Program-made: the position numbers and the translations under genes
Origin: an uncultured Methanomassiliicoccales archaeon
GTDB taxonomy: Archaea > Thermoplasmatota > Thermoplasmata > Methanomassiliicoccales > Methanomethylophilaceae
Assembly: GCA_949298875.1 (NCBI GenBank)
Contig: CASFYI010000008.1
Coordinates: forward strand, 1-43,466
Reading direction: 5' to 3'
Length of the DNA stretch: 43,466 nucleotides
In this document: positions 7,860 through 14,642 of the stretch, one piece after another
How the letters are laid out: each line of letters opens with the position of its first letter
Numbering within the stretch: position 1 is the first letter of the stretch
Notes under the pieces: generated by a model
What the model saw: only the letters and a program-made list of their open reading frames with translations
Told to the model about the DNA's origin: nothing
Database searches by the model: none

Positions 7860-8364
7860 AGTTTCCGAGACGGTTTAGGGAGGTCGAACTTCCGGTCATT
7901 ACAAGCATCGGCCGGAACGTTTCGGCCGAAGGCGTTCCAAGGGCTTGGGTATTACGAATTCAAAATAGGTGTTACCGAGACGATGGATGAATGAGTTACA
8001 TCCATCATACATGTGCCAGTATCTTCGCGGAATGCATCCATCGTGCCAAAGATTTGATAAGCACACGAAAACAAGGCATTCCGAAGTTTATATTGTCACA
8101 TAGTTATCCAAAACGTTTTTCATCTACAAACAATCCAGTCGTATTATCAAAAATACTAATACACATTTTTGTCAGTTTTAGGATTGCTGGCTATTATTGA
8201 TTTAGCTTACCCTAAATATTTTAGGAGCCTTAAAAAATCCAAATCCAAAAACTCTAAACGTAATGCTTCATTCAATATATATTCATTTTGTAGTAGCCAT
8301 TAATATAGTGATATCCCGTTCAAAGCCACGTTCCAAACACCATGTTGGTAACGGAGGCAATGAC
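7860..8364. other. AT-rich intergenic promoter region of the hdrA-mvhDGA operon
   Basis: About 500 bp without a credible gene. The part from about 7960 to 8350 is strikingly AT-rich compared with the surrounding high-GC DNA. It contains possible TATA boxes at about 8274-8282 (AATATATAT) and 8302-8308 (AATATAG), and a perfect 15-bp inverted repeat CCTAAA-TAT-TTTAGG at 8211-8225 that could be an operator. Nearer pop5 there are GC-rich partial inverted repeats (GGAACG...CGTTCC, about 7914-7939). Small open frames here have no ribosome sites or recognisable products. Confidence 0.6.
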
Positions 8365-8367
8365 TTG
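8353..8367 (+). promoter_or_regulatory. Ribosome site selecting a TTG start for hdrA
   Basis: GGAGG at 8353-8357 stands 7 bases before the TTG at 8365, the best spacing. An ATG at 8360, only 2 bases after GGAGG, opens a two-codon frame (ATG ACT TGA) that overlaps the TTG. The longer in-frame start about 100 bp upstream would add an AT-rich leader of unrelated composition. Confidence 0.6.
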
Positions 8368-11300
8368 AGCAAATCAGCATTGGTTATCGGTGGAGGAATC
8401 GCGGGAATCCAGGCATCCCTGGATCTGGCAGACCGCGGCATACACGTCTTCCTGGTGGAGAAGGACCCCACCATCGGAGGCGTCATGTGCCGTCTGGACA
8501 AGACGTTCCCTACGAACGACTGCTCCGCGTGTATCCTCTCCCCTAAGATGGCGGACTGCGCCGGACACCCGAACATCGACGTCCTGACCTACCACGAGGT
8601 CCAGAAGGTCGAGGGACAGGCCGGCGACTTCAAAGTCACCGTACTGAAGAAGGCCAGGTACGTCAATCCCAAGGAGTGTACGGGCTGCGGCGACTGTCTC
8701 GCCAAGTGCCCTGTGAAGAACATCCCCGACAAGTACGAGTACGGACTTGTCAACAGGAAAGCCATCTACATCCCCCACGCGCAGGCCGTCCCCCGTGTCG
8801 CCATCATCGACGGGGAGCGCTGCAACATGATCCAGAAGGGCAAGTGCGGGCTCTGCGCGAAGAACTGCGGAAAGGGAGCCATCCACTACGACGACAAGGA
8901 TGAGGTCATCACCCTCGAGGTCGGATCCATCATCGCCGCTCCCGGATTCAAGGTCTGGAACGCCGAGACCGCCACCGAGTACGGCTACGGCAGGTACCAG
9001 AACGTCGTCACCGCCATCGAGTACGAGAGGCTCATGTGCGCGTCCGGACCCCACAGGGGCCACATCGTCATCCCCTCCAGCGGGGAGGACCCCAAGAAGA
9101 TCGCGTACATCCAGTGCTGCGGATCCAGGTCCGAGAAGAAGGGCTGGAAGAAGTACTGCTCCTCCGTGTGCTGCATGTACGCGGTGAAGCAGGCCATGAT
9201 CACCAAGGAGCACGGAGACCTCCAGGAGGACATCTTCTTCATGGACATCAGGTCCTATGGAAAGGAGTTCGAGGCCTACATCCACAGGGGAGAGCGCGAG
9301 TACGGCATCAACATGCACAGGGCCGCCCGCGTCTCCAACATCGAGGAGGACCCCGTCACCAAGCAGCTGACCGTCAACTATACCGACGCCAACGGCGACG
9401 CCGTGTCCGATGTCTTCGACATGGTCGTCCTCTCCGTCGGACTCGTTCCCCCCGAGGGAGCCGAGGAGTTCGCCCAGACCCTGGGAATCGAGCTCAACGA
9501 GTACGGCTTCTGCAAGACCTCCGTCTTCCACCCCCTGGAGACCACCAAGCCCGGTATCTTCGTGACCGGAGCCTTCGCGGCCCCCAAGGACATCCCGACC
9601 TCCGTCGCCGAGGCATGCGGTGCCTCCGCCAAGGCCGGGGCCTACATCGTCGACGAGAACTTCGAGCCCTGCGCCCCCAAGGTCTACCCGCCCGAGAAGG
9701 ACGTGGAGGGCAAGGAGCCCAGGATCGGAGTCTGGGTCTGCCACTGCGGAATCAACATCGGATCCGTGGTCGACGTCCCCGCCGTCACCGCCTACGCCAA
9801 GACGCTCCCCAACGTCGTCCTGGCCGAGGAGTCCCAGTACGCCTGCGCACAGGACTGCCTCGAGAGCATCTCCGCCGCCATCCAGGAGCACGACCTCAAC
9901 AGGGTCGTCGTCGCGTCCTGCACCCCCAGGACCCACGAGCCTCTCTTCAGGGAGGCCTGCAGGAACGGCGGTCTGAACAAGTACCTCTACAACATGGCCA
10001 ACATCCGCGACCAGTGCTCCTGGATCCACATGCACGAGCACGAGGCCGCCACCGCCAAGGCCAAGGACCTGCTGAGGATGGCCATCGCGAAGGCCCGTCT
10101 CCTCGAGCCCCTCGTCGGAGCCGAGATCCCGGTCACCAACGCCGCCGCCGTCATCGGAGGAGGAATCACCGGTATGACCGCCGCCCTCGACATCGCCGCG
10201 CAGGGATACCCCGTGCACCTCGTCGAGAGGGAGGCCGAGCTCGGTGGATACGCCCGCAACTTCCGCTTCAGGGAGGACGGAGTCGATGTCCAGGAGTTCC
10301 TCGCCGACACCATCAAGAAGGTCGAGAGCAACCCCCTGATCACCGTCCACAAGAACGCGGTCGTGAAGGACATCCCCGGATACGTCGGTAACTTCAAGCT
10401 GCAGCTCGAGGGTGGAGAGGAGTACCCCATCGGTGCCGTCCTGTTCGCCGTCGGAGCCGCCGCCTACCAGCCCACCGAGTACAACTTCGGCAGCGACCCG
10501 AAGGTCATGACCCAGACCGCGGCCGAGAAGGCCATGGACGACGGATCCTTCAACGGAAAGAACGTCGTGTTCATCCAGTGCGTCGGTTCCAGGAACGACA
10601 AGGTCGCCTACTGCAGCAGGGTCTGCTGCGCCGCGTCCTGCCGCGAGGCCATCAAGATCAAGATGGCCGACCCCACCGCCAACGTCACCATCATCCACAA
10701 GGACATCAGGACCTACGCCTTCCGCGAGGAGCTCTACTACAGGGCCTGCCAGATGGGCGTCAAGTTCATGAGGTACAACGAGAGCGAGCCGCTCCCCGAG
10801 TACGACGGCAACTGCGTCAAGGTCTTCGACGCCACCCTGGGTGCGCAGGTCGAGATCCCCGTCGACACCGTCATCCTCGCCGCCGGTATCGCCCCCGACA
10901 GAGAGAACAAGGAGAACCTCGCCAAGATGGTCAAGGTCCCCATCTCCAAGGACGGATTCTACTTCGAGGCCCACCAGAAGCTGAGGCCGGTCGACTTCGC
11001 CACCGAGGGTGTCTACGTCGCCGGTGCCGCCCACTGGCCCAAGTTCATGGACGAGTGCATCGCCCAGGCCTCCGGAGCCGCCTCCAGGATGCTGACCGTC
11101 ATCTCCAAGGACAAGCTCATCTCCGAGGGTATCACCGCCGTCTCCAACCCCGACAGGTGCGACGGATGCGGCGTGTGCGTCGGATGCTGCGACTACAACG
11201 CCATCACCCTGGTGGAGCAGCCCAACGGACTCGTCAAGAGCAACGTCAACGCCGGACTGTGCAAGGGATGCGGATGCTGCGTCGCCTCGTGCCCGGCCGG

Positions 11301-11388
11301 TGCCATGGAGCAGAGGGGCTTCAGGAGCAAGCAGATCATCGCCGAGATCGACGCTTGCCTCGACTACCCCGTCGGTGGAGGAGAGTGA
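8365..11388 (+). CDS. hdrA: CoB-CoM heterodisulfide reductase subunit A, tandem HdrA module form
   Basis: Flavin-containing, electron-bifurcating subunit of the MvhADG-HdrABC complex. It takes electrons from H2 through MvhD and splits them between ferredoxin and the CoM-S-S-CoB heterodisulfide. The 1007 residues exceed the classical HdrA length of about 650. Residues ~1-450 are an extra HdrA/QmoA-like module: FAD motif VIGGGIAGIQAS (about 6-17) and a ferredoxin site CTGCGDCLAKC (about 105-115). Residues ~455-1007 are a full HdrA: CHCGINIG start, VVASCTPRTHEP, second FAD motif VIGGGITGMTA (about 594-604), and two C-terminal 4Fe-4S sites, CDGCGVCVGCC and CKGCGCCVASC. It leads the mvhDGA operon; hdrB and hdrC are not in the window. 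All arginine codons are AGG, CGC, CGT or AGA. Confidence 0.93.
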   Translation: MSKSALVIGGGIAGIQASLDLADRGIHVFLVEKDPTIGGVMCRLDKTFPTNDCSACILSPKMADCAGHPNIDVLTYHEVQKVEGQAGDFKVTVLKKARYVNPKECTGCGDCLAKCPVKNIPDKYEYGLVNRKAIYIPHAQAVPRVAIIDGERCNMIQKGKCGLCAKNCGKGAIHYDDKDEVITLEVGSIIAAPGFKVWNAETATEYGYGRYQNVVTAIEYERLMCASGPHRGHIVIPSSGEDPKKIAYIQCCGSRSEKKGWKKYCSSVCCMYAVKQAMITKEHGDLQEDIFFMDIRSYGKEFEAYIHRGEREYGINMHRAARVSNIEEDPVTKQLTVNYTDANGDAVSDVFDMVVLSVGLVPPEGAEEFAQTLGIELNEYGFCKTSVFHPLETTKPGIFVTGAFAAPKDIPTSVAEACGASAKAGAYIVDENFEPCAPKVYPPEKDVEGKEPRIGVWVCHCGINIGSVVDVPAVTAYAKTLPNVVLAEESQYACAQDCLESISAAIQEHDLNRVVVASCTPRTHEPLFREACRNGGLNKYLYNMANIRDQCSWIHMHEHEAATAKAKDLLRMAIAKARLLEPLVGAEIPVTNAAAVIGGGITGMTAALDIAAQGYPVHLVEREAELGGYARNFRFREDGVDVQEFLADTIKKVESNPLITVHKNAVVKDIPGYVGNFKLQLEGGEEYPIGAVLFAVGAAAYQPTEYNFGSDPKVMTQTAAEKAMDDGSFNGKNVVFIQCVGSRNDKVAYCSRVCCAASCREAIKIKMADPTANVTIIHKDIRTYAFREELYYRACQMGVKFMRYNESEPLPEYDGNCVKVFDATLGAQVEIPVDTVILAAGIAPDRENKENLAKMVKVPISKDGFYFEAHQKLRPVDFATEGVYVAGAAHWPKFMDECIAQASGAASRMLTVISKDKLISEGITAVSNPDRCDGCGVCVGCCDYNAITLVEQPNGLVKSNVNAGLCKGCGCCVASCPAGAMEQRGFRSKQIIAEIDACLDYPVGGGE

Positions 11389-11394
11389 TTCACA

Positions 11395-11814
11395 ATGGCA
11401 GACTTCGAACCTAGGATCGTCACGTTCTGCTGCAACTGGTGCTCCTACGCCGGTGCCGACGGCGCCGGTGTGGCCAGGCTGCAGATGCCGACCAACTTCC
11501 GCATCATCAGGACCATGTGCTCCGCCCGTGTGGACCCCGAGTTCGTCCTCAGGGCCTTCGCCAAGGGCGCCGACGGCGTCATGGTCCTCGGATGCCACCC
11601 CGCCGACTGCCACTACATCGGTGGAAACTACAGGGCCAGGAGGAGGATCGCCCTCCTCAGGATGGTCCTGGAGCAGTACGGATTCGACCCCAAGAGGCTC
11701 AAGCTCGAGTGGGTCTCCGCTTCGGAGGGAGAGAAATTCCAGAAGACCATCGTCGAGTTCGTCGACACTATCAAGGAGCTCGGACCGACCCCCCTCGTCA
11801 AGGAGGAGAACTGA
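11395..11814 (+). CDS. mvhD: F420-non-reducing (Mvh) hydrogenase iron-sulfur subunit D
   Basis: A [2Fe-2S] protein that carries electrons from the MvhAG hydrogenase to HdrA. It has 139 residues, the usual length. The conserved cysteines are seen in FCCNWCSYAG (about 11-20), RTMCSARV (about 39-46) and LGCHPADCHY (about 64-73). It follows hdrA by 6 bases and precedes mvhG by 1 base, so the four genes are one transcript. Confidence 0.96.
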   Translation: MADFEPRIVTFCCNWCSYAGADGAGVARLQMPTNFRIIRTMCSARVDPEFVLRAFAKGADGVMVLGCHPADCHYIGGNYRARRRIALLRMVLEQYGFDPKRLKLEWVSASEGEKFQKTIVEFVDTIKELGPTPLVKEEN

Positions 11815-11815
11815 A

Positions 11816-13123
11816 ATGGGATTCTTCGACAAGCTGTTCAAGAAGGACAAGGACGCGAAAGAGGCGCCCAAGGCCGCCCCCAAGGCGGCCGAGAAGCCCA
11901 AGGAGGCCCCGAAGGCGGCCGCCGCACCCGCAGCGGCCCCCGCGAAGCCCGCAGGATCCGCCGGCAACCCCGGCCCCTACGACTTCATCGTGCCCCCGGT
12001 CGCCATGCCCGGCGACTCCAAGATCCCCGCGGGAGTCCAGCTCGAGGCCGCTGACCTCGGACCTCTCCTCCCCGGTGCCCCCGCCGGCGGCAAGATCAAG
12101 CTCGCCGTCTACTGGTGCGCCGCCTGCGGCGGATGCGACGTGTCCCTGCTGGACACCCACGAGAGGCTGCTGACCGTCGGCGACATGGCCGACATCGTCA
12201 TGTGGCCCGTCGCCGCCGACGGAAAGGAGAAGGACATCGCCGCCATGGACGACGGCGAGATCACCGTCTCCATCATCTCCGGAGCCGTCAGGAACTCCGA
12301 GAACGAGCACATGGCCAAGCTGCTGAGGCAGAAGTCCAAGATCGTCGTCTCCTACGGAACCTGCGCCGTCTTCGGCGGAAGCCCCGCCCTGGCCAACCTC
12401 GTGCCCGGCGGAGCCAAGGACATCCTGGACTACGTCTACACCAAGACCCCGTCCTCGGCCAACTTCCAGCAGGAGTACCACGCCGACGCACCCCAGGTGC
12501 CCGTCAACTCCTACCAGGCCCCCGAGGGAGAGCTCACCCTGCCCGTGCTGTACGACACCGTCAAGACCCTCGACCAGGTCGTCGATGTCGACTACTACGT
12601 GCCCGGATGCCCGCCCCTCCCGGAGACCATCTCCAACATGCTGAAGGCCGTCGCCGACTTCGCCTACAACGGAGTGCCCCTCCCGCCCAAGGGAACCACC
12701 ATCGGTGTCACCACCAGGACCCTGTGCGAGGAGTGCCCCAGGCAGAAGACCGGTGCCAGGATCACCGAGCTCAAGGAGCCCTACCAGATCGATGTCGATC
12801 CGGAGAAGTGCCTCATGGAGCAGGGAATCCTGTGCCTCGGACCCGCGACCGTCGGCGGATGCGGCGCCAGGTGCACCCGTGTGGGACAGCCCTGCCGCGG
12901 ATGCTACGGACCCTCCCCTGATGTCCAGGAGCAGGGTGCGTCCATCTTCACCGCCGTCGCTTCCCTCTATCCGATCCTGGACGAGGACCCGATCTGCGGA
13001 GAGGACGAGATCATCAAGATCATGGGCGGAATCAAGGACCCCCTCGGCTACTTCTACGCCTACACTCTGGGCAAGTCGCTGATCAAGAGGGCCGTCATCG
13101 AGAACAAGACAGGAGGCAACTGA
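11816..13123 (+). CDS. mvhG: F420-non-reducing [NiFe] hydrogenase small subunit G with long N-terminal extension
   Basis: Small subunit, whose iron-sulfur clusters pass electrons from the NiFe site to MvhD. The 435 residues are well above the roughly 300 of typical MvhG. The first ~55 are a Lys/Ala/Pro-rich, low-complexity tail starting MGFFDKLFKKDKDAKEAPK; the family domain begins near KIKLAVYWCAACGGCDVS (about 93-110), which supplies the proximal cluster cysteines. Further cluster ligands are in VSYGTCAVFGG, VPGCPP, CEECPR and GGCGARCTRVGQPCRGC. The ATG follows the mvhD stop by one base; no alternative start lies just before the conserved domain. Confidence 0.94.
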   Translation: MGFFDKLFKKDKDAKEAPKAAPKAAEKPKEAPKAAAAPAAAPAKPAGSAGNPGPYDFIVPPVAMPGDSKIPAGVQLEAADLGPLLPGAPAGGKIKLAVYWCAACGGCDVSLLDTHERLLTVGDMADIVMWPVAADGKEKDIAAMDDGEITVSIISGAVRNSENEHMAKLLRQKSKIVVSYGTCAVFGGSPALANLVPGGAKDILDYVYTKTPSSANFQQEYHADAPQVPVNSYQAPEGELTLPVLYDTVKTLDQVVDVDYYVPGCPPLPETISNMLKAVADFAYNGVPLPPKGTTIGVTTRTLCEECPRQKTGARITELKEPYQIDVDPEKCLMEQGILCLGPATVGGCGARCTRVGQPCRGCYGPSPDVQEQGASIFTAVASLYPILDEDPICGEDEIIKIMGGIKDPLGYFYAYTLGKSLIKRAVIENKTGGN

Positions 13124-13124
13124 A

Positions 13125-14642
13125 ATGGCTGGACCAGTCATATGGGATGAGAAGCAGAAAGTGACCACCAAGCGCGTCACCGTCGACCCCATCACCCGTC
13201 TCGAGGGACACGGGAAGATCGAGATCTTCCTGGATGACAAGGGAGACGTCGAGAACGCGTACTGGCAGGTCCCCGAGCTCAGGGGATTCGAGAGGTTCTG
13301 CATCGGCAGGAGGGTCACGGAGCTCAACCAGATCACCGCCAGGCTCTGCGGTGTGTGCCCCGGCGCGCACCACCTGGCCGCGACCAAGGCCATCGACGGC
13401 TGCTACAACGCCAAGCCGACCGAGACCGCCTACCTCATCAGGGACGCGTTCTACAACGCCCACTTCGTCCACAGCCACATCGCGCACTTCTACGCCCTGG
13501 CTGCCCCGGACTTCGTGTGCGGACCCGCCGCCCCCGCGGCGGAGAGGAACGTCCTCGGTGTCGTCGGACACGTCGGACTCGAGCTGGGCGGAGCCGTCAT
13601 CAAGACCCGCAGGGAGGCCCAGAACATCCAGGCCATCATCGGTGGAAAGCCCACCCACCCCCTCGTCGGTGTCCCCGGAGGAGTCTCCAAGGGAGTCACC
13701 AAGGAGGAGCAGCAGCAGATGATCGGGTTCGCCCAGGACATGGTGGAGTTCGCCAAGACCTCCCTCCAGGTGTTCAAGGATGTCGTCCTGTCGAACAAGG
13801 AGTACATGGACATCGTGCTGAACAAGGACCTGTACTACCACGAGACCTACCACATGGGACTCGTCAACGACAAGGACCAGTTCGAGATCCATGACGGAAA
13901 GGTCAAGGTCGTCAACCAGAAGGGAGAGCAGACCAACCTCTACGACCCCTACGACTACCTGGATAACATCGCCGAGGCCTCCGAGCCCTGGTCGTACGAG
14001 AAGTTCCCGTACCTCAAGAAGCCCGGATACAAGGGACTCGTCGACGGACCCGACTCCGGTCTGTACAGGGCCAGCCCCCTGTCCAGGCTGAACGTCTGCA
14101 AGGAGATGCCCACCCCGCTCGCCCAGGACGCCCTGGTCGAGTACCGCGGCATCCTCAAGGACGCCGGTGTCGAGGGACCCTGCCAGTTCACCCTGGCAAC
14201 CCACTGGGCCAGGATCATCGAGATGATCTGCTGCGCCGAGAAGTGCCTCGAGGACGTCTCCAACCCCGACATCCTCAACGGCGACATCAAGCAGCACGAC
14301 CTCGTTCCCGGCGGAAGGGGTGTCGGATGCGTCGAGGCTCCCCGCGGAACCTTGACCCACGACTACACCTGCGACGAGAACGGTATCGTCACCGCGTGCA
14401 ACATGGTCGTCGGAACCACCAACAACAACGGTCCCATCTGCATGGACGTCGCGAAGGTCGCCAAGGGCCTCATCCACAACTACGACGTCTCCCCCGGACT
14501 GCTGAACATGGTCGAGATGGCGTTCAGGGCATACGACCCCTGCAACTCCTGCGCGACCCACGCTCTGCCCGGGCAGATGCCGCTGACCGCGGTCATCAGG
14601 AACTCCGACGGATCCGTGTACGACACGATCACCAGGAACTGA
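13125..14642 (+). CDS. mvhA: F420-non-reducing [NiFe] hydrogenase large subunit A
   Basis: Catalytic subunit that oxidises H2 at a NiFe centre for heterodisulfide reduction. It has 505 residues. The L1 motif RLCGVCPGAHH (about 73-83) and the L2 motif DPCNSCATH (about 472-480) hold the four nickel-ligating cysteines. About 25 residues follow the final histidine; in this family such a tail is removed by a maturation protease after nickel insertion. It starts one base after mvhG and is the last gene of the operon, followed by a strong hairpin. Confidence 0.97.
   Translation: MAGPVIWDEKQKVTTKRVTVDPITRLEGHGKIEIFLDDKGDVENAYWQVPELRGFERFCIGRRVTELNQITARLCGVCPGAHHLAATKAIDGCYNAKPTETAYLIRDAFYNAHFVHSHIAHFYALAAPDFVCGPAAPAAERNVLGVVGHVGLELGGAVIKTRREAQNIQAIIGGKPTHPLVGVPGGVSKGVTKEEQQQMIGFAQDMVEFAKTSLQVFKDVVLSNKEYMDIVLNKDLYYHETYHMGLVNDKDQFEIHDGKVKVVNQKGEQTNLYDPYDYLDNIAEASEPWSYEKFPYLKKPGYKGLVDGPDSGLYRASPLSRLNVCKEMPTPLAQDALVEYRGILKDAGVEGPCQFTLATHWARIIEMICCAEKCLEDVSNPDILNGDIKQHDLVPGGRGVGCVEAPRGTLTHDYTCDENGIVTACNMVVGTTNNNGPICMDVAKVAKGLIHNYDVSPGLLNMVEMAFRAYDPCNSCATHALPGQMPLTAVIRNSDGSVYDTITRN

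Follow-up and report, generated by a model that had tools for sequence, protein, structure and literature searches.

An N-terminal arm on the hydrogenase small subunit MvhG of Methanomethylophilaceae, with membrane-surface tethering as a candidate role

The mvhG gene and its N-terminal extension

The stretch of 43,466 nucleotides analysed here (the window) makes up contig 8 of a genome of 1.34 Mb and 79.7% completeness, which belongs to the order Methanomassiliicoccales and the family Methanomethylophilaceae (f1 among the families compared). Four genes of a hydrogenase operon follow one another on its plus strand in the order hdrA-mvhD-mvhG-mvhA, the operon context of an mvhG gene. A long form of hdrA (8263..11388), whose true start may lie inside the open reading frame, stands upstream of mvhD (11395..11814), and the stop codon of mvhD ends one base before the ATG of mvhG. 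The mvhG gene itself (11816..13123) encodes 435 amino acids and is followed by mvhA, the hydrogenase large subunit (13125..14642).

To which hydrogenase does this small subunit belong? The Pfam family Oxidored_q6 (PF01058) covers residues 104-278 with 88.4 bits against a cut-off of 27, and cysteines 104, 107, 183 and 265 are invariant across 83 aligned sequences. The nearest solved chains are both MvhG of the MvhADG-HdrABC complex (PDB 5odc chain E, E 1.1e-59; 9sw2 chain E, E 2.8e-55), which residues 92-425 cover over nearly their whole length and with which the window protein shares an operon context of hdrA, mvhD and mvhA. Frh gamma chains match at E 7.4e-12 or weaker and periplasmic [NiFe] chains at 1.8e-6 or weaker. 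On sequence grounds, the product is MvhG, the small subunit of the F420-non-reducing hydrogenase.

The solved MvhG chains begin at the core, whereas the window protein carries 92 residues ahead of it. Because the alignment to 5odc chain E starts only at residue 94, those to two other F420-non-reducing hydrogenase chains at 92 and that to Oxidored_q6 at 104, residues 1-92 (11816-12091) are an extra element, here called the arm. The first-pass annotation had placed about 90 residues before the small-subunit domain, and the alignments agree. The hydrogenase core, delimited by Pfam and the solved chains, takes up residues 93-435 (12092..13120, plus strand). MvhG itself is well known; the arm appears to be a new feature, since a search of the open-licence literature found no description of it.

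In group 1 membrane-bound [NiFe]-hydrogenases, membrane attachment lies with the small subunit, which has a Tat signal and is anchored by a transmembrane helix at its C-terminus. The 92-residue arm of MvhG differs from these in having no arginine, which rules out a twin-arginine signal for Tat export.

Translation start and distribution of the arm

A Shine-Dalgarno sequence, AAGGAGG (11800..11806, plus strand), lies within the 3' end of mvhD and ends nine bases before the ATG of the arm. By a loose pattern, all 78 readable mvhG genes of Methanomethylophilaceae have a similar sequence ahead of the arm. Could the arm be an artefact of a wrongly chosen start codon, or be left untranslated? The window gene has an in-frame ATG at residue 63, and among the 78 arms there are five cases of an internal start with a Shine-Dalgarno-like sequence before it. 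Set against this, 53 of the 78 arms lack an internal ATG and 24 lack ATG, GTG and TTG altogether, so that in those 24 the arm is translated if the core is, and codons 2-10 are under purifying selection by pN/pS (values below). The first-pass annotation had named internal initiation, or removal of the extension, as evidence that would count against it; with 78 of 78 starts preceded by a Shine-Dalgarno-like sequence and no internal start in 24, the arm start is well supported, and we regard an artefact as very improbable. Starts in this family were taken as the first ATG past the end of mvhD, an ATG being kept over an in-frame GTG or TTG one to three codons earlier; the second of two close ATGs was used in L141, L146, L147 and L155, and a TTG in L148 and L152.

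How widespread is the arm? A search of 147 Methanomassiliicoccales genomes gave an MvhG match in 138, including ten Methanomethylophilaceae genomes with weak matches only. N-termini were read at 80 loci of the family and 30 others, from families f2 (1), f3 (4), f5 (11) and f6 (14). Two family loci that ran off their contigs (L007, L138) were dropped, which leaves 78; the window locus (L001) and one 99% identical to it (L003) were both counted. Outside the count stand 22 of the 102 family genomes (seven with no match, ten with a weak match, G087 among them, and five with fragments only), as well as family f4, represented by an MvhG fragment only.

All 78 readable family genes have the arm, at lengths of 48-105 residues. 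In 29 of the 30 genes from f2, f3, f5 and f6, the earliest start after mvhD leaves two to seven residues before the core, and a start two or three residues ahead of the core is available in all 30. The exception is L185 (f3), whose earliest start leaves 30 residues and which also has a start two residues before the core preceded by a Shine-Dalgarno-like sequence. Of a further 53 named loci (L059-L111), mostly bacterial with some Methanomassiliicoccales, just two have arms, each about 60 residues long. These are L104 and L109 from assemblies labelled Thermoplasmatales, the latter being Methanomethylophilaceae genome G025; the remaining readable loci have at most 15 residues before the core, one having no found start and two being cut. 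In a class-wide search over a sample of 400 genomes out of a larger set, the listed matches outside the order begin at about residues 78-93, as judged from alignment positions, start codons aside.

The comparison of MvhG N-termini in related genomes proposed in the first-pass annotation thus separates the family (78/78) from its relatives, which have at most seven residues in 29 of 30 genes. The arm had been called unusual for MvhG; this is true outside Methanomethylophilaceae, while inside the family every readable gene has it. Judged by these N-termini, the arm is specific to the family among the families checked. The simplest reading is a single gain at the base of Methanomethylophilaceae, because arm-bearing genes were read in 12 of its 14 genera.

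Several observations were made alongside. G087, a 97% complete genome of the window's genus, matched MvhG and the hydrogenase large-subunit family only weakly, and its assembly or lineage may lack the Mvh operon. Some f5 and f6 genomes (G019, G021, G134-G139, G141-G143, G145 and others) have a second MvhG-like gene, about 44-50% identical, whose match begins at residue 84-92. At the f3 loci L179, L181, L185 and L189, mvhD and mvhG are separated by about 370 bases, within which a different frame stays open for about 120 codons; its product looks, by eye, like a helix-turn-helix protein.

Conservation and predicted structure of the arm

The arm of the window protein divides into three parts, all on the plus strand. 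The tip, residues 1-12 (MGFFDKLFKKDK; 11816..11851), is hydrophobic and cationic and is the proposed membrane-surface anchor. The linker, residues 13-78 (11852..12049), is rich in Ala, Lys and Pro and then in Pro, and varies in length and sequence. The root, residues 79-92 (ADLGPLLPGAPAGG; 12050..12091), is semi-conserved, lies just before the core and reads ADLGxLLPGAPPGG or a variant of it in most family members.

Hydrophobic residues fill tip position 3 in 100% of the 78 genes, with 97% at position 4, 92% at 7 and 47% at 8, and Lys or Arg occupies position 6 in 77%, position 9 in 67% and position 10 in 86%. Positions 3, 4 and 7 are hydrophobic together in 70 of 78 tips; shuffles of residues 2-14 average 1.18, and the observed count was reached in none of 2000, although these counts are not independent since the 78 sequences share ancestry. 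Eight tips break the pattern, five of them beginning MGWWADRKKKK. The residues themselves vary (FF, FL, WW, FI, VV) while hydrophobicity is kept. At least three Lys or Arg residues stand at positions 5-14 in 77 of 78 tips, and the first 14 residues have a median net charge of +3, with one member at or below zero.

Across the family, the linker is 31% Ala, 14% Lys, 12% Pro and 9% Glu, and its net charge has a median of +0.5 and a range of -9 to +6. The first-pass description of a low-complexity extension rich in Ala, Pro and Lys fits the window protein well, whose residues 1-50 contain 17 Ala, 11 Lys and 7 Pro with a net charge of +5 (the full 92-residue arm has +2). Its description of the arm as basic applies to the first 14 residues and fails for the linkers. 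A C-x-C or CC cluster occurs in the linker of 14 of the 78 arms, for example ECDCGCKEHE (L136, L137, L143, L145, L149, L008, L028 and others); in these lineages it might bind a metal or take part in redox chemistry. The arm of the window protein is free of cysteine.

Selection acts differently along the arm. In 20 genes of the window's genus (L003, L019 and L129 set aside), pN/pS is 0.123 over codons 2-10, 0.200 over codons 2-12, 0.754 in the linker, 0.186 over the 14 root codons and 0.163 over the first 60 core codons. With pN/pS low at tip and root and 0.754 between them, selection keeps both ends of the arm while the middle drifts. In the 102 family genomes, a strict DNA pattern for the tip has 22 matches, of which 21 lie at mvhG starts; controls had none. 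Out of 78 mvhG starts, the 21 that match all come from the genus of the window, and so narrow a pattern would miss looser tips on other proteins. The lone match outside mvhG is a 95-residue open reading frame (L193, G048:C2:20525) beginning MGFLDKLFKRCKKKK.

The window protein was modelled with AlphaFold2 on an alignment of 83 rows (A1; 67 family and 16 other sequences, from the 78 and 30), and a second structure alignment (A2) comprised 28 family and seven other rows. The model has a mean pLDDT of 69.5. Residues 1-10 are predicted as coil (mean 52), nearly all of residues 9-68 fall below 50, and the blocks 71-80, 81-90 and 91-100 reach 64, 84 and 91. Since confidence rises to 84 at residues 81-90 and is mostly below 50 over 9-68, the root is predicted to be placed and the rest of the arm to be free.

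These data bear on whether the arm serves within the complex or in its assembly, folding onto Mvh or Hdr subunits, stabilising the complex, helping it to oligomerise or acting in maturation of the small subunit. Such a role would fit the constraint on the 14 arm residues nearest the core and their confident placement beside it in the model. Predicted disorder over residues 9-68 and lengths of 48-105 residues speak against it, as does the operon hdrA-mvhD-mvhG-mvhA that arm-less relatives in the order share; we consider an internal or assembly role unlikely.

Does the tip form an amphipathic helix, as was claimed at first? The hydrophobic moment exceeds that of a tip's own shuffles at P<0.05 in one of 78 tips over 12 residues and in 12 of 78 over 19; the window tip gives P = 0.18 and 0.10. 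The model of L153, which has a longer tip, shows a helix at residues 3-21 (block pLDDT 62 and 47) and then disorder, in a weak model of mean pLDDT 58.6. The moments point the same way as this helix, though weakly for any single tip. A membrane-binding score exceeds a cut-off of 0.68 in 67 of 78 tips; it leans on charge, and we give it little weight. For the window protein, predicted as coil at the tip, an amphipathic helix is only weakly supported by moment and model. The broader claim of a flexible arm with a sticky tip fares better, as it is supported by tip conservation, a near-neutral linker and predicted disorder.

Cargo peptides of protein shells combine a helix with a Pro/Ala linker, and the arm resembles them, so that it might address MvhG to an encapsulin or a bacterial microcompartment. 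Encapsulin (PF04454) was found in none of the 102 family genomes, and the microcompartment shell protein (PF00936) in none of 41 genomes, 25 of them from the family, while control genomes matched in both searches; the window genome is about 80% complete. The chance that the arm is shell cargo is minimal.

A candidate membrane tether

What might the tip bind? The first-pass annotation had suggested the extra module of HdrA, the membrane or an acidic partner. Long HdrA has been described as a two-FAD form (PMC4153887). Every one of the ten operons compared encodes it, and five of them have the arm; the five without are L218-L222 from f2, f3, f5 and f6. Because long HdrA occurs with and without the arm, here beside arm-less MvhG in five of five non-family loci, a link to its extra module was rejected. 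Nor is it likely that a basic linker meets an acidic partner, since the charge of the linker is not conserved. A link to the lack of a second NADHdh-family protein, or of an Ech-type membrane hydrogenase, was not supported either: family genomes G074, G031 and G101 have a second, lower-scoring match and the arm, and non-family genomes G001, G004 and G005 have one match and arm-less MvhG. That the second match is Ech-like is inferred from its score. Counts of the large subunit by PF00374 are uninformative because the matches are fragments.

A parallel to the arm comes from FtsY. The FtsY of the window genome (L214) begins MFDSLKSKMKGLFSKGKK, followed by a Pro/Glu-rich linker, and the hydrophobic moment of its start exceeds that of its own shuffles at P = 0.012 over 19 residues. 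Similar starts occur in G031, G048, G072, G076 and G110; six of 14 genomes were readable, all Methanomethylophilaceae. For E. coli FtsY, membrane-binding N-terminal helices have been reported (PMC8082313 and PMC7987157). The FtsY A-domain and the MvhG arm have the same layout of a short hydrophobic and cationic N-terminal stretch, a long low-complexity linker and a folded enzyme domain, and the MvhG tip likewise combines an N-terminal position and cationic charge (median +3 over 14 residues) with a conserved hydrophobic pattern (3/4/7 in 70 of 78). The two are non-homologous, however; the MvhG tip is shorter, and its linker is about neutral and made of Ala, Lys and Pro, where the FtsY of the window genome has Pro and Glu. 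In a second parallel, the Wolinella methylmenaquinol:fumarate reductase with its SdhE-type hydrophobic subunit, membrane association has been credited to amphipathic helices without transmembrane domains (PMC2680327). That enzyme is also an Hdr-related redox complex, but its helices lie in the heterodisulfide-reductase-related subunit and not on a hydrogenase small subunit or a linker.

Might the tip instead dock onto protein? As a hydrophobic and cationic helix on a leash, it could have as its target not lipid but the Fpo-like complex, HdrD or HdrBC, some enzyme that uses ferredoxin, or another copy of Mvh-Hdr. A tip as constrained as the core on a nearly free linker fits any short linear motif, and partners are at hand, since a NADHdh-family protein, as in the Fpo-like complex, occurs in 136 of the 147 genomes of the order. 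The same NADHdh-family partners occur in arm-less families, though, and Fpo and HdrD are described across the whole order (PMC10804542). A matching arm was absent from the few HdrB/HdrD-type proteins that could be read (L231, L232, L234, L237 and L238, for example), in a partial survey of 24 loci, many of them unreadable for orientation or start. The interchange of FF, FL, WW, FI and VV at kept hydrophobicity suits lipid more than a specific groove. Docking onto protein is a strong competing reading, though the less likely of the two.

We consider a membrane-surface tether the best explanation of the arm, with a probability of roughly 0.5. The arm has the architecture of a tether, as read from its sequence, in that a conserved tip, a free linker and a conserved root follow one another. 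Lipid is preferred as the target because hydrophobicity is kept while identity varies, because the tip is cationic, because the FtsY of the window genome is built likewise and bacterial FtsY has reported N-terminal membrane-targeting helices, and because the protein partners that can be named also occur in arm-less families. Against the tether, conservation would look alike if the tip were a short linear motif for binding protein, the tip is short, the helix and moment tests are weak, and eight of 78 tips are off pattern. The Mvh-Hdr complex of methanogens has also been described as cytoplasmic (PMC4153887 and PMC10658910).

How would the tether work? On lipid contact, the first ten or so residues would fold into a short amphipathic helix, with hydrophobic residues at positions 3, 4 and 7 (and 8 in about half of members) and Lys or Arg mostly at 6 and 9-10. 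The helix would dip a little way into the inner leaflet, its cationic face turned to the lipid head groups, and the linker, of about 20-80 Ala-, Lys- and Pro-rich residues joined to the core by the root, would let the hydrogenase stand off the membrane. In Methanomassiliicoccales, MvhADG-HdrABC is thought to supply reduced ferredoxin to a truncated Fpo-like complex, which oxidises it at the membrane and passes the electrons to HdrD (PMC6019823, PMC7374477 and PMC10804542). If the bifurcating complex were kept on the membrane, possibly close to the Fpo-like complex that oxidises ferredoxin, reduced ferredoxin would have less far to travel to the Fpo-like/HdrD complex. Folding on lipid, membrane binding and a gain for ferredoxin transfer are all inferred.

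We put forward, as a speculation that may well not hold in full, that the bifurcating Mvh-Hdr of Methanomethylophilaceae is bound peripherally to the membrane. Through the MvhG arm, acquired in the family ancestor, the complex would be moored beside the ferredoxin-oxidising Fpo-like/HdrD pump, and bifurcation and ion pumping would form one membrane-surface assembly. The arm bears on how the seventh order of methanogens couples cytoplasmic electron bifurcation to a truncated Fpo-like ion pump. If the proposal is true, the Mvh-Hdr of one large host-associated family would be membrane-associated and not soluble.
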